Shown: positions 28,605-35,507, counted from the stretch's first letter. The stretch: DNA of 64,000 bases from Nocardioides potassii (GCF_021648885.1 NZ_JAKJHZ010000007.1:62001-126000); one strand, 5' to 3'. The notes: generated from the letters alone by a model not told the origin. Translations and numbers: made by a program.

Positions 28605-28673
28605 GTAGACCACGCCCGCAGCGGCCACACCTTGGTTGCTGAGGGTCTCCCACTGCGGGTCGGTCACGATCAC
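28605..28673 (-). pseudogene. ccsB: 5' fragment of ccsB (cytochrome c biogenesis)
   Basis: The first 23 codons (TDPQWETLSNQGVAAAGVVY) match the N-terminus of CcsB/CcsA-type cytochrome c synthesis proteins, then the likeness stops abruptly near 28605. The GTG start overlaps the resB stop as GTGA, the natural operon arrangement. The remaining several hundred codons are missing. Confidence 0.75.
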
Positions 28674-29329
28674 ACCTCTTCGTCCTTCTTCAGTGCTGTC
28701 ACGATCGCGGCCAGCTCGTCGCGCCCGTTCTCCGGGTCACCCCCTGAGGACCGGTCGAGCCGGGCCACCTCCACCAGTGTGCTCCCGTCCTCGCGACGGC
28801 GGGCACGCACCCACAGCCGGCGCGGGCGCACGAAGAGCGAGCCGAGCAGGCCGAGCAGCGCCAGCACCACGCCGGTCAGCGCGACGAGCTTGCCGGGGGT
28901 CCGGCTGATCTGGATCTTGTTCCACCGCTCGAGGCGGTCGAAGATGACGCTGCCGAGGCCGTCGGGGAGGGTGAGGGTGTCGCCGGGGCGCAGGTCGAGG
29001 CGCAACGGCTGGCCGTTGGGCTTCATCACTTGGGTGGTCCTGGCCTTGTCGAGGACGTAGACCGAAGAGTTGCTGCCGTCGTCGAGGCCGACGTCGCCGG
29101 TGTAGACGAACAGCGACACGAGGGGGTCGATGGCGTTGCCGAACGCGGAGGCCGGCATGGTCAGCTTGCCGTCGGCGTCCTTGCCCATGGCGAAGGTCGG
29201 GTAGAAGGTGCCCTCCAGGCCGATCTGCGTGGGTCGCGCGTCGGCCGCCTTGACCACGCCGAAGGACTCGAAGGTCTGGGCGTTGGTGGGCAGGAACACC
29301 TGCGGTCCGCCTTGGGCGCGGTTGCCGCG
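28670..29329 (-). pseudogene. resB: 3' fragment of resB (cytochrome c biogenesis)
   Basis: About 220 codons of the ResB C-terminus, the partner of CcsB in heme delivery to apocytochrome c. Visible are VFLPTNAQTFESFGVV, a late transmembrane helix (LVALTGVVLALLGLLGSLFV) and the cytoplasmic tail. The in-frame sequence begins immediately after the stop codon of the Xre gene (29330-29332), so the N-terminal half with its transmembrane helices is gone. It has no start of its own. Confidence 0.85.
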
Positions 29330-29572
29330 CTACTCCGCGAAGAGCTGCCCCGGCTCCACGTGCAGCGCCTTTGCCAGAGCACGGACGCGGCTGACGCCAA
29401 GGTCGGCGCGCCCGTTCTCGAACTTGTTGAGGTTGACCCGGTGGAGCCCTGCGGCCTTGGACAACTCTTCTTGCGTGAGGCCGCGGTCCAGCCGAAGTTG
29501 TCGAACTCGCGCACCGACCCGCGCAAGCTCCTCGGCGCGCTGGGCCTTGACTTCTCCGGTACCTAGTTCCAT
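29330..29572 (-). CDS. Xre-family repressor of peptidase/deaminase operon
   Basis: An 80-residue helix-turn-helix protein: RQLRLDRGLTQEELSKAAGL followed by HRVNLNKFENGRADLGVSRV is the Xre/Cro pattern. The ATG at 29572 overlaps the end of the deaminase-like gene by 10 bases, so it is co-translated with it. Xre proteins next to HExxH peptidases are often cleaved to release repression (ImmA/IrrE-type logic, family knowledge). Here the peptidase is the upstream part of the same operon. Confidence 0.85.
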   Translation of the reverse strand: MELGTGEVKAQRAEELARVGARVRQLRLDRGLTQEELSKAAGLHRVNLNKFENGRADLGVSRVRALAKALHVEPGQLFAE

Positions 29573-30912
29573 GGCGCAACGACCGTCTCGGACGGTGCGA
29601 CGGCCAAGGCCGGGCGCGCGACTAGCGAGAGTGTGATCAACCCGCCCTCCATCCCACCTGGCAACTGGGAAGGGCTCCCCACCTCGTTTGCCGAGGTCAG
29701 GAGCCCTTTTCCAGTTACATGGAGCGATTCAGGATTTACCCTGAACCGCTCCATTGACCGAAGGACGGCAAGGTCCGGATCCTGGCGCACCCGAGAGAAC
29801 TGCGGCCCCGTCGGCAGCTCGTACTTGCTCGGCACCGGGCCGCTAGCCGGGTGCGCTCGGGTGAAGACAAGTTGTGCGATGCGCTCGCCGGGCACCAGGG
29901 TCAGCGGCATCTGTCCTAGGTTGGCCAGCTCGAGCGTGAGGCAGCCGACGAACCTCGGTTGCACCTGGACCGCAGTGGCCGACAGGAGGCCCAGACGGCC
30001 GTACGAGGAACGGGTGATGACCTGGGCGGTGAGGTCCCCGGGCAGGCGCAGGTACTCCAGAGTGCTCGCCAGCACGAGTTGACCGGGGTGCAGGACGAAG
30101 GCGCCGCCCCAGTCCTTCTCGACGGCGACCTGCATCTCGCGCGGCTCCTGGTCGAGTCGCATCGCGCTGAACGACTCGGTGGAGGTGCGCTGGAAGGTGA
30201 TGAACTCACGACCGAGCCTGACGTCCATGGCGGCACCGGAGACGACGAGCGTCGTTCTCGGCGAGACCACGATCGCCTGACTGTCGGGCCGCTCGATCTC
30301 CGCGACCTCGTCACCGAGGCGCAGGCGGCGGATGATCTCCGGCTCGGTCAACACCCCGCCGCCCGCGCCGGCGTCGTGACTGGAGTCCTCAATGGCCTCC
30401 GCCTGACCGTCCGTGCCCCGCTCGGAAGCCGGGCCGAGGCCGTCGCCGGCGCCGTGGAGGGTTTTGACGCCCTTGCGCCACAGGCGGCAGAAGTCGAGGT
30501 CGTCCAGGCTCTTCGCCACCAGGTCGTTGATAGCCCCGAGCCGCGCGGCTTGGTCGGAGTCGCTCGAGCGCAGCAGAAGCTGGGTGGCCACCCAGCCCGC
30601 GTTGAGAATGTCCGCACGCTTGACTCGCCTGCCCTGCGCGTGCTGACCGACCGGTAGTCCGGACATCAACCAAGCGACGAGTTCTGAGACGACGTCCTCG
30701 CGATCGGCGGCGTCGTAGGTCTTCGTGGTGATGCTGGAGAGAGCGGCGGTGAAGTCAGACGCGTGGTCCAGCAACGTGTCGGCCAGACGCGGGACGACGG
30801 GATTGCCGCGTCCCGGCAGGTCGGAGCGGTTCCATCGGCGCCAGGCTTCGATGAGCTCGCGATACGTCTCCCCGGTCGCCGAGAGCGCCCCGAGCATGAG
30901 CTCCACGCGCAC
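29563..30912 (-). CDS. dCTP deaminase-like domain protein (downstream half of a frameshifted gene)
   Basis: A 449-residue frame beginning at GTG 30912. Residues 1-175 continue the upstream peptidase protein. Residues 188-355 form a dCTP deaminase/dUTPase fold: GAAMDVRLGREF, FVLHPGQLVLASTLE, then R301-SS-YGR306 and the catalytic glutamate E328 in LTLELAN, matching R110/R115/E138 of E. coli Dcd. dCTP deaminases act as antiphage nucleotide-depletion enzymes. A long hairpin lies in the 3' end of the frame. The start is probably artificial, since the protein reads on from the peptidase frame after a one-base shift at a C7 run. Confidence 0.75.
   Translation of the reverse strand: MRVELMLGALSATGETYRELIEAWRRWNRSDLPGRGNPVVPRLADTLLDHASDFTAALSSITTKTYDAADREDVVSELVAWLMSGLPVGQHAQGRRVKRADILNAGWVATQLLLRSSDSDQAARLGAINDLVAKSLDDLDFCRLWRKGVKTLHGAGDGLGPASERGTDGQAEAIEDSSHDAGAGGGVLTEPEIIRRLRLGDEVAEIERPDSQAIVVSPRTTLVVSGAAMDVRLGREFITFQRTSTESFSAMRLDQEPREMQVAVEKDWGGAFVLHPGQLVLASTLEYLRLPGDLTAQVITRSSYGRLGLLSATAVQVQPRFVGCLTLELANLGQMPLTLVPGERIAQLVFTRAHPASGPVPSKYELPTGPQFSRVRQDPDLAVLRSMERFRVNPESLHVTGKGLLTSANEVGSPSQLPGGMEGGLITLSLVARPALAVAPSETVVAPWN
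29663..29716. repeat. Long hairpin in 3' end of deaminase-like gene
   Basis: AACTGG (29663-29668) pairs with CCAGTT (29711-29716), AAGGGCTCC (29670-29678) with GGAGCCCTT (29700-29708), and ACCTCG (29681-29686) with CGAGGT (29692-29697). Together they make a stem of about 21 pairs around a 5-base loop. On the + strand the stem is followed by TT, on the - strand it lies inside the coding frame. It could be a bidirectional terminator or a structured RNA. Confidence 0.6.
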
Positions 30913-31747
30913 CCCGGGGGGGCGGGTGAGAGCCCAACGTGATCGCCTGGTCGGCCGAGACCGACGCGAGAAAGTCGCACTGCGCAGCGATCGCGGCCGG
31001 CCCGAAGCTGCTCACCGCGTATAAGTCGCACAAGACCTCGCGCGCCCAACTACGGAGCACCTCCGTCAGCTCGGCGGTCGTCACTCGAGCTGACGCCGAC
31101 CCGGTGTGGTCGTCGTCTTCCTGCTGCCACGCCTCCACCTCGGCAGCATCCAGCCACGAGTCGACGTCCATGTCGTCGACGAGGTCGCGCGTCCTCTCGG
31201 CGATATGGGCGACCTCATGACCCACCGCGATGGGCGTCCACAGGGCCCGGCTTCCCTCGATCGCCGGAACGCTGAACACGTGCACCTGCTCGGGCGGCGG
31301 GTCGAGCCCCGGCAGGACCTCCGGCCGGTACAGCGTCTGCCACAACGCGACCGGGTCGGTCTCGAAGTTCCCGGGACCACCAACGGTGATCAGCGGGCGC
31401 ACGGTCGACTTGCCGGACGTGCCCAACTTGTCCAGCTCCCGCTGCACGGCTCGCACGAGGGAGACCGGCGGCGGACGGTCCCGGGCGAACAACAGATCTG
31501 CGTAGTCGGTCAGCGTCGTGAGGTAGCCGAGCAGGGGGCGCAGTCGAACCAGGACGTCCTCGTCGTCAACTGCCCGCTCACACTCGGCCGCGGCCTGGCG
31601 CGCCACAGCGTCAACGAGCCCGCCGACCTGCCTGGCCGCCACAGTGCGGGACTGGTCGCGCAGCCCGCGGCTGACCGCGAGCCGGTCGAGCTCGCGTCCG
31701 AGCGCTTCGGTGCGCAGCAGCAAGGCAGAGAGCATGGTCGTGGTCAT
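30755..31747 (-). CDS. HExxH metallopeptidase-like protein (upstream half of a frameshifted gene)
   Basis: The frame runs from ATG 31747 (a GTG lies at 31750). It encodes an unrecognised helical N-terminus, then IAVGHEVAHIAERT with the zinc motif HEVAH near residue 178, and 55 residues later SWAREVLCDLYA, a likely third-ligand glutamate helix as in gluzincins. At 30916-30922 there is a run of seven C on the coding strand. Past it this frame turns into arginine-rich nonsense ending at 30755, while the next frame continues sensibly into the deaminase-like half. Removing one C would give a single protein of about 730 residues. Confidence 0.7.
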   Translation of the reverse strand: MTTTMLSALLLRTEALGRELDRLAVSRGLRDQSRTVAARQVGGLVDAVARQAAAECERAVDDEDVLVRLRPLLGYLTTLTDYADLLFARDRPPPVSLVRAVQRELDKLGTSGKSTVRPLITVGGPGNFETDPVALWQTLYRPEVLPGLDPPPEQVHVFSVPAIEGSRALWTPIAVGHEVAHIAERTRDLVDDMDVDSWLDAAEVEAWQQEDDDHTGSASARVTTAELTEVLRSWAREVLCDLYAVSSFGPAAIAAQCDFLASVSADQAITLGSHPPPRGARGAHARGALGDRGDVSRAHRSLAPMEPLRPAGTRQSRRPASGRHVAGPRV

Positions 31748-31784
31748 CACGAGCCCGAGCGTCAGCTAGAGGTCGGCGTGCGGG

Positions 31785-32297
31785 TCAGGCGGTCCGCCCG
31801 CCCACCGTCTCGCCCGCCCTCGCGATGCGGCTCAACAAGGTTCCAGACAGCGCGCCGAACAGGGCGACGAGGTCCTCACTGTCCTTCATGGACAGCGGGA
31901 GGCTTTCATCCAGCACCCGGTCGAGCCGGTCGGCGACTCCTTCGACGGCGTCGGCTTGATCCTCCGGACTCGAGTCGCTGCGCGCTGCGCGTGCGCCGGG
32001 GGCGGCGAGCGCCACGAAGGCGTGCGTCCACGTCGCATAAGTGGAGTCGGAGGACGGCCGCCAGTGGTCCCTCAACTCTTCGGCGAACGAGCGAAGCAGG
32101 GTCTGGGTCTTCGTCACAGCCTCACGTTCCCTGTCGTCCAGGGCCAGGTCGTGCGCGCGCCGCTTCGCGGCCGAGGAGACAAGGGCAAGGAGGGCGCTGG
32201 CCGCGATCTCGCCGCGTCGACGCGCCGCGACCCCCTGGGAGCTCGCCATTCGGAGGCCGAGGTGAGTTTCGTGGCGTACCTGCACAACTGCTCCCAT
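31785..32297 (-). CDS. Hypothetical helical protein, first gene of peptidase/deaminase operon
   Basis: A 170-residue, mostly helical soluble protein that I do not recognise (for example AVTKTQTLLRSFAEELRDHW and VALFGALSGTLLSRIARAGE). It starts at ATG 32297 (an ATG at 32249 is possible) and ends 35 bases before the peptidase gene on the same strand. Conserved context with the peptidase/deaminase would be the best clue to a role. Confidence 0.6.
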   Translation of the reverse strand: MGAVVQVRHETHLGLRMASSQGVAARRRGEIAASALLALVSSAAKRRAHDLALDDREREAVTKTQTLLRSFAEELRDHWRPSSDSTYATWTHAFVALAAPGARAARSDSSPEDQADAVEGVADRLDRVLDESLPLSMKDSEDLVALFGALSGTLLSRIARAGETVGGRTA

Positions 32298-32480: not shown

Positions 32481-32894
32481 ATGGGAGAGGTGAGGCGCCT
32501 GCGAGCGACACCTCCGGCGAGCCCCGTTTCGGGCGGCCGCCCGCGGTGCTCGCGTCCCTCCTGCGCCGCCGAGGTGCCAGTCGGCAAGGGCGGCCCGGGC
32601 CGGCCTTCGAAGTACTGCTCGTCCGCGTGCGCGCGAGCGTTCGTGGCGGAGAAGCGCGAGGTGGACGCCCGCCTGCGCGACCTGCTGGCGCTCGCGGAGC
32701 AGTACGGGCCGGTGCGCGTCGTGAGTGAGTCCACAACCGCAGCTCCCACGATGGCGGAGATGCAGGTCGTGGAGGCCGCGCGAGACGCGTTCACGGACAT
32801 GGATCGCGCACAGAACCTTGCGCCCGCTTTCCTTGCCCAGGTTGAGGCGGCGCTGAATCTCGCCGTCGAGGTGATGCGTCGATCACTCCGATAA
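32481..32894 (+). CDS. Small zinc-finger-like hypothetical protein
   Basis: A 137-residue protein. CSRPSC, then GRPSKYCSSACARAF gives four cysteines in a C-x4-C...C-x3-C arrangement like small zinc-binding proteins of phages, plasmids and islands. The rest is helical. GAGAGAGGG lies 6-8 bases before the ATG. It is divergent from the peptidase/deaminase operon across 184 bases. The function is unknown. Confidence 0.6.
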   Translation: MGEVRRLRATPPASPVSGGRPRCSRPSCAAEVPVGKGGPGRPSKYCSSACARAFVAEKREVDARLRDLLALAEQYGPVRVVSESTTAAPTMAEMQVVEAARDAFTDMDRAQNLAPAFLAQVEAALNLAVEVMRRSLR

Positions 32895-35024: not shown

Positions 35025-35439
35025 CCCGTGCGTCCCATCGACCGCGAGTCGTGACTTCGCCGACCTGCCGGTCGTCAGTCCACGATGGCGGGTGTGCGGG
35101 CCTCTGTTCGGGCCTGCACCTGCGCGCCGGCCGTACCGTGGCAGGGCGGGGCGTCGCGGCCGGGGACACCACGCGCATCGGCGGATCCGGTCGCCGGGAT
35201 GTCGCCTCAGTCGGTGAGCGACCGACACGGCTTCGGCGCTCCACCCGACGAGGCGACGCCCCACCATGAACCCGCCTTGGTGTGGCCGCAGCACCGCCGG
35301 TCTCACGCGCAGTCTCACTGGGGTCGAAATGGCACAGTTTGGTAACGACACGAACTGAGACGAACAGTGCACGTGCATGGCCTCTGACCTGCGAAAACAC
35401 GGGTACACCGTTCGCTTCTGTTCGTCTCGGCCTCGGGAA
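35025..35439. other. Gene-free stretch next to att site (415 bases)
   Basis: No gene, integrase or excisionase was recognised here, although it is the terminal part of the inferred island. Open frames on both strands have no plausible start signals or family likeness. Confidence 0.5.
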
Positions 35440-35489
35440 GCATCTGACTACGGATCAGAAGGTTTGGGGTTCGAATCCCTACAGGCGCG
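35440..35489 (+). mobile_element. 3' fragment of tRNA-Arg(ACG): putative att site
   Basis: The sequence matches the anticodon arm (CTGA-CTACGGA-TCAG, anticodon ACG), variable loop, T arm (GGTTCGAATCC) and 3' acceptor strand (CAGGCGC plus discriminator G) of a tRNA-Arg. The 5' acceptor strand and D arm are absent: the bases before 35440 do not pair with the acceptor end. This is the standard scar where an integrase uses a tRNA 3' end and rebuilds the intact tRNA at the other side of the element. That other end must lie left of the window. Confidence 0.75.
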
Positions 35490-35507
35490 CAGAACGGCTC
35501 AACGAGA

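Follow-up and report, generated by a model that had tools for sequence, protein, structure and literature searches.

Two minus-strand reading frames in the window (the whole 64,000-nucleotide stretch of Nocardioides potassii DNA that was analysed) encode a HExxH peptidase-like region and a dCTP deaminase (Dcd)-like domain, and raise the question of whether the two form one protein and what such a protein might do. The original prediction held that the first reads into the second, and this was confirmed, but over two minus-strand frames in the window. By codon scoring, a first frame carries the coding signal between 31760 and ~30950, and the next one takes it up from ~30890 to ~29720. Read across the frame change, the window fusion is 728 aa in length and aligns full-length with intact homologues, with the family-invariant residues all intact on both sides of the change. 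The deaminase residues named beforehand (R301, R306 and E328) were located exactly in the 449-aa ORF, and the helical and Xre genes are present as described (Table 1).

Table 1. Features of the peptidase-Dcd locus and its immediate surroundings, in window coordinates.
Feature	Position	Strand	Remark
Small helical protein gene, 170 aa	31785..32297	-	conserved partner directly upstream of fusion
N-terminal gluzincin-like peptidase ORF, 331 aa	30755..31750	-	family homology down to ~30920
HEVAH motif	31205-31219	-	peptidase ORF
REVLCD motif	31025-31042	-	peptidase ORF
Frame change within peptidase domain	30911..30931	-	beside HPP motif; C7 run
C7 run	30922-30916	-	site of frame switch
ORF: end of peptidase region, helical linker, Dcd-like domain (449 aa)	29563..30912	-	
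Dcd-like domain	about 30354-29743	-	Pfam DCD (PF22769) and TIGR02274 matches
RSSYGR	29995-30012	-	Dcd part; the two Arg are R301 and R306
LTLEL	29926-29940	-	Dcd part; the Glu is E328
KYELPTGPQF	29797-29826	-	Dcd part
Two strong stem-loops, terminator-like	29665..29753	-	between fusion and Xre gene
Xre gene	29330-29572		beyond the 3' hairpins of the fusion

The peptidase-Dcd fusion is real, and its open frame is broken in the window copy, which, barring an assembly error at the frame change, is probably inactive as it stands. We rate the odds of a sequencing or assembly error, with an intact gene beneath it, at a little short of even. The change sits in a C7 run, and in the 450 codons past it the frame stays open, with no family-invariant residue of this stretch lost; on the other hand, the assembly is in other respects of good quality (15 contigs, 99.98% complete), the window ORF also extends past the usual C-terminus, and two other fusion copies are broken at other places. 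Programmed frameshifting was rejected because the breaks in the window, G012 and G1130 copies lie at different positions in the gene. Broken copies make up 3/8 of the total, as would suit a gene that is costly or can often be dispensed with, although two of the three genomes that carry them may be long-read metagenome-assembled genomes (MAGs), open to indel errors.

When about 1,200 distinct genomes, all of Actinomycetota, were searched for homologues, seven further fusion loci were found. Uninterrupted homologues of about 730 residues, proposed beforehand as a check, exist at about 635-760 aa in five actinobacterial genomes (G114, 635 aa; G187, about 760 aa; G443, 643 aa; G602, 674 aa; G668, 649 aa), and these are the only intact members; the remaining two are G012 and G1130. 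Peptidase and deaminase were not encountered as unrelated separate genes among the homologues: every one of the seven joins the HExxH region to a Dcd domain, and separate reading frames for the two parts occur only in the broken copies. Since the intact homologues are each encoded in one open frame, with an orthologue of the helical gene directly upstream of the fusion in 8/8 loci, peptidase and deaminase belong to one polypeptide. Identity of the fusions to the first row of the alignment is about 34-47%. While G012 is a Nocardioidaceae MAG, from the same family as the window genome, G443 belongs to another class of the phylum, and the fusion family is therefore wide but rare. It is a new, undescribed protein family. 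Searches of plasmids and phages by tblastn returned ordinary Dcd/dUTPase matches without the peptidase part, and scans of genome contigs and viral contigs with the peptidase alignment gave no match. A second genome scan yielded, among the matches listed, only G012, and absence from it is weak evidence. We propose that the gene pair is a rare, horizontally moving actinobacterial unit of defence type.

The co-occurrence of fusion and helical gene, which had also been put forward as a check, is complete. The helical proteins (155-181 aa) are poorly conserved but alignable, with 20-31% identity to L016, and carry a conserved C-terminal G-E, after which comes a short tail of variable sequence (L016:2467-2961(-) and orthologues); the peptidase may cleave or dock at this G-E. 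The helical protein matched no family in Pfam, NCBIfam or PADLOC. In four loci (G114, G012, G602 and G668) a divergent winged-helix gene lies upstream, and at the corresponding position the window has a divergent 137-aa gene (32481-32894, + strand) with a zinc-ribbon-like Cys pattern. PDC-M05 was considered as the same system and rejected, as the winged-helix gene matches PDC-M05A only weakly (E 1e-4) and PDC-M05 pairs a nucleotidyltransferase with HEPN.

The Xre gene, taken in the original prediction for an overlapping partner, fared less well. The Dcd ORF does reach it, but its final ~60 codons (beyond ~29740) score as non-coding, run through two hairpins and are probably no part of the coding sequence. 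The stem-loops stand side by side where the fusion gene has its 3' end; both stems are nearly perfect, and the RNA of the region folds at -80.8 kcal/mol (z -7.8), with 0/200 shuffles as low. Given these hairpins and an ORF tail devoid of coding signal, the Xre gene is probably a separate unit and not a partner of the fusion. It adjoins the fusion in the window only, being next to 0/7 homologues; elsewhere in the homologue genomes only generic helix-turn-helix (HTH) matches to it were found (<=43% identity), and PADLOC likewise matches the window Xre only as a generic HTH. With Xre neither conserved nor continuous with the fusion, the proposed analogy to Xre/HExxH pairs, in which the repressor is cleaved, has no support here, although four loci do have another HTH gene, the divergent winged-helix one.

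On its other side, the Xre gene of the window abuts a 3' fragment of resB (28670-29299, - strand; profile positions 320-476 of 486), an intact copy of which lies on another contig (C14:307-1734). This fragment seems to mark an end of an inserted island. At the far side of a poorly coding stretch of 28.3-35.4 kb is a tRNA-Arg (acg) gene (35414-35490, + strand), a likely integration site of the island.

The N-terminal part of the fusion is a putative zinc peptidase. Across seven loci, the window included, H-E-x-A-H, W..E..C-D (E-x-x-C-D), H-P-P and R are invariant, so that HExxH and a downstream Glu ligand, as required of gluzincins, are found in 7/7 rows. We take this pattern to be that of gluzincin zinc peptidases, in an order close to M48. 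The order HExxH ... E ... D ... HPP ... R is thus shared with M48-like and other gluzincins, whereas the fused domain differs from them in having no significant sequence or fold match and no Pfam or other database family. One member gave a borderline match to the Pfam M48 C-terminal family (E 0.16). In comparisons with the full-length model, ZMPSTE24 and Ste24p appeared at Z 7.6 and 7.4, but with an rmsd over 8. Modeled alone (pLDDT 77, pTM 0.80), the peptidase domain had no significant Foldseek match, and VIA-align returned only weak rows for it, many of them M1/M9 zinc peptidases (Z 4.0-4.6).

Homology of the C-terminal part to Dcd and Dcd:dut enzymes extends over the whole domain. It matches Pfam DCD (PF22769) at E 6e-29 and TIGR02274 at E 3e-35 (121.6 bits, above the curated cut-off of 92.8), and it is closest to the bifunctional Dcd:dut of M. 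tuberculosis (2QXX; E 2e-33). This homology rests on sequence, as the full-length model is poor in its Dcd part (pLDDT about 40). Also shared with these enzymes are the equivalents of S111, R115 and E138 (E. coli Dcd numbering), kept in the window and in all intact members, and the lid motif KYxxPTGPxFS. Only the broken G1130 copy has lost E138, which is replaced by Gln, as expected of a decaying gene. In contrast to Dcd and Dcd:dut, the fused proteins carry a peptidase and have lost the motif-III Asp (D128), with H, Q, N or E in its place in 8/8, and their allosteric loop bearing H121 (HxTA) is one residue shorter in 8/8; standalone actinobacterial Dcds have both the Asp and the full-length loop in 28/28. 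They also form a clade of their own (support 100/100), long-branched and fast-evolving, and coexist with housekeeping Dcd; the window genome has a normal Dcd gene at another place. The allosteric loop is what controls recognition of the base in DCDs, as well as their cooperativity or switching driven by dTTP, and in dUTPase a change of the motif-III Asp to Asn abolishes catalysis while binding is kept (PMC4827122). By comparison of these motifs, dUTPase activity of the fused Dcd would be gone, deamination of dCTP is possible but uncertain, and nucleotide binding is likely. That the deaminase is intact is therefore upheld for its two Arg and its Glu, which all intact members conserve, so that loss of these residues across the family, named beforehand as a ground for refutation, did not come true; it is not upheld for the motif-III Asp or the dTTP-responsive loop; with both altered, nucleotide depletion is possible and no longer the obvious reading.

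As to function, the surroundings of the homologues point toward defence. PADLOC identified known defence genes in 6/7 homologous neighborhoods: a CBASS operon with cyclase, TRIP13 and SAVED effector (G187), complete type I R-M systems (G114 and G012), BovA (Borvo) with a PbeA-like helicase (G443), ThsB of Thoeris (G668), and a type II R-M pair (G1130). At a threshold of 1e-20 or better, at least 12 of 70 neighboring genes were defence matches, a lower bound as not every neighbor was scanned, vs. 1/103 genes in a small control set taken from these genomes as six arbitrarily chosen 19-kb stretches (Fisher, p 9e-5 by gene and 0.025 by locus). No known defence genes were found near G602, which lies on a 13.7-kb contig, or in the window island, and neither the fusion nor the helical protein matched a PADLOC 2.0 model. 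The contextual part of the antiphage claim is thus borne out by a strong association with defence genes; this is good evidence of its kind, and the gene pair is probably an undescribed anti-phage module. The BovA match of G443 (L018:4902-6973, - strand) is divided over two adjacent ORFs, and that gene may be split or broken.

How might such a module operate? From context, motifs and phylogeny we infer zinc peptidase activity, nucleotide sensing, an antiphage function, a substrate and an order of events. We give a probability of roughly 0.4 to an abortive-infection module whose Dcd-like domain acts as a pyrimidine nucleotide sensor and as a gate on the peptidase. It would consist of two conserved genes, for the ~170-aa helical protein and the ~640-760-aa fusion, often with a divergent winged-helix regulator. 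The Dcd-like domain would form its usual trimer and bind a pyrimidine deoxynucleotide, the level of which would shift once dNTP metabolism comes under phage control; with its base/allosteric loop altered and its motif-III Asp lost, the domain would have become a nucleotide sensor instead of a housekeeping Dcd:dut enzyme. Its ligand state would then switch on the attached peptidase, which, once active, would stop growth by cutting a cell protein or the helical partner. Somewhat more tentatively, we envisage a nucleotide-gated protease immune system, with a repurposed Dcd that senses phage-altered dNTP pools and triggers the fused metallopeptidase so that the cell halts. A dUTPase fold acting as a nucleotide-dependent switch has been described, in that dUTP blocks Dut-Stl binding (PMC5593958). 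In the Stl-dUTPase switch of staphylococcal islands the nucleotide state of a dUTPase fold likewise controls a defence-related regulator (PMC5593958), but the dUTPase is that of the phage and its partner is a repressor, whereas here the Dcd is covalently joined to a peptidase. Several points count against a sensor: the general-base Glu, Ser and Arg that were kept are expected of a working deaminase, the peptidase fold has no significant match, the intact members number five and the control set is small, and the window and G602 have no known defence genes nearby.

The main rival to a sensor is depletion of dCTP, the idea of the original prediction, whereby the Dcd part would deaminate dCTP and starve the phage, with the peptidase releasing this activity by cleavage of the helical partner or of itself. 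We consider this doubtful, as the missing motif-III Asp, with its four different replacements, speaks against it, and known defence deaminases such as AvcD have a zinc cytidine-deaminase fold unrelated to Dcd. To our knowledge, no antiphage dC-nucleotide deaminase has a peptidase domain. What keeps depletion under consideration is the conservation of the catalytic Ser, Arg and Glu and of the lid, together with the use of dC deaminase toxins as antiphage agents, such as AvcID, a dC-nucleotide deaminase with an RNA antitoxin (PMC10511110); loss of the dTTP-responsive loop could also free the enzyme from feedback, as may be reasoned from the DCD work (PMC4827122). If the fused Dcd were catalytic, it would act on the same nucleotides as AvcID and related systems, and would differ from them in its fold and in having a peptidase domain.

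It is improbable that the module has nothing to do with defence and is a metabolic or stress regulator merely travelling in genomic islands; the window island, from tRNA-Arg to the resB fragment, does lack known defence genes, and broken copies are frequent, as is often the case for cargo genes, but the known systems in most homologous neighborhoods, compared with a single match among the control genes, argue otherwise. Least probable is a decoy or guard, in which a degenerate Dcd would mimic the host Dcd and a phage protein attacking or binding Dcd would trigger the peptidase: the normal Dcd elsewhere in the genome, the fast evolution, long branches and motif-III degeneracy of the fused domains, and the proposal of inactive enzyme copies as decoys in other bacterial conflict systems (PMC7159879) are in its favor, but a pure decoy would have no need to retain the lid or the catalytic residues Glu, Ser and Arg.

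Bacterial immunity draws on nucleotide metabolism as well as on proteolysis, but we know of no system in which the two are joined in one protein. The claim that this combination was not previously known agrees with our literature search, in which no publication was found that connects phage defence with dCTP deaminase and peptidase. ImmA/IrrE-type M78 peptidases paired with Xre, and CapP-CapH of CBASS, resemble the module in their HExxH peptidase, their defence or mobile setting and, in some loci, a nearby HTH gene; they differ in that here the peptidase is fused to a Dcd, the HTH protein is a divergent winged-helix, and the window Xre is not conserved. Should a gating Dcd sense changes in dNTPs, the host could register directly that a phage has taken over the synthesis of DNA precursors; should it deplete dCTP instead, a second fold (Dcd/dUTPase) would serve that purpose. 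With five intact homologues named, the question is directly testable.

Two further genomes gave weak matches to the peptidase profile and were rejected as family members: the match in G080 is noise, and that in G1173 is a HExGH protein that looks, by its neighbors, associated with an extracellular contractile injection system (eCIS). The G1173 protein (L025 / L030:9010-10272, - strand) reads HETGHQ...EITADA, distantly like the peptidase domain, and sits, as judged by eye, in an apparent eCIS cluster.
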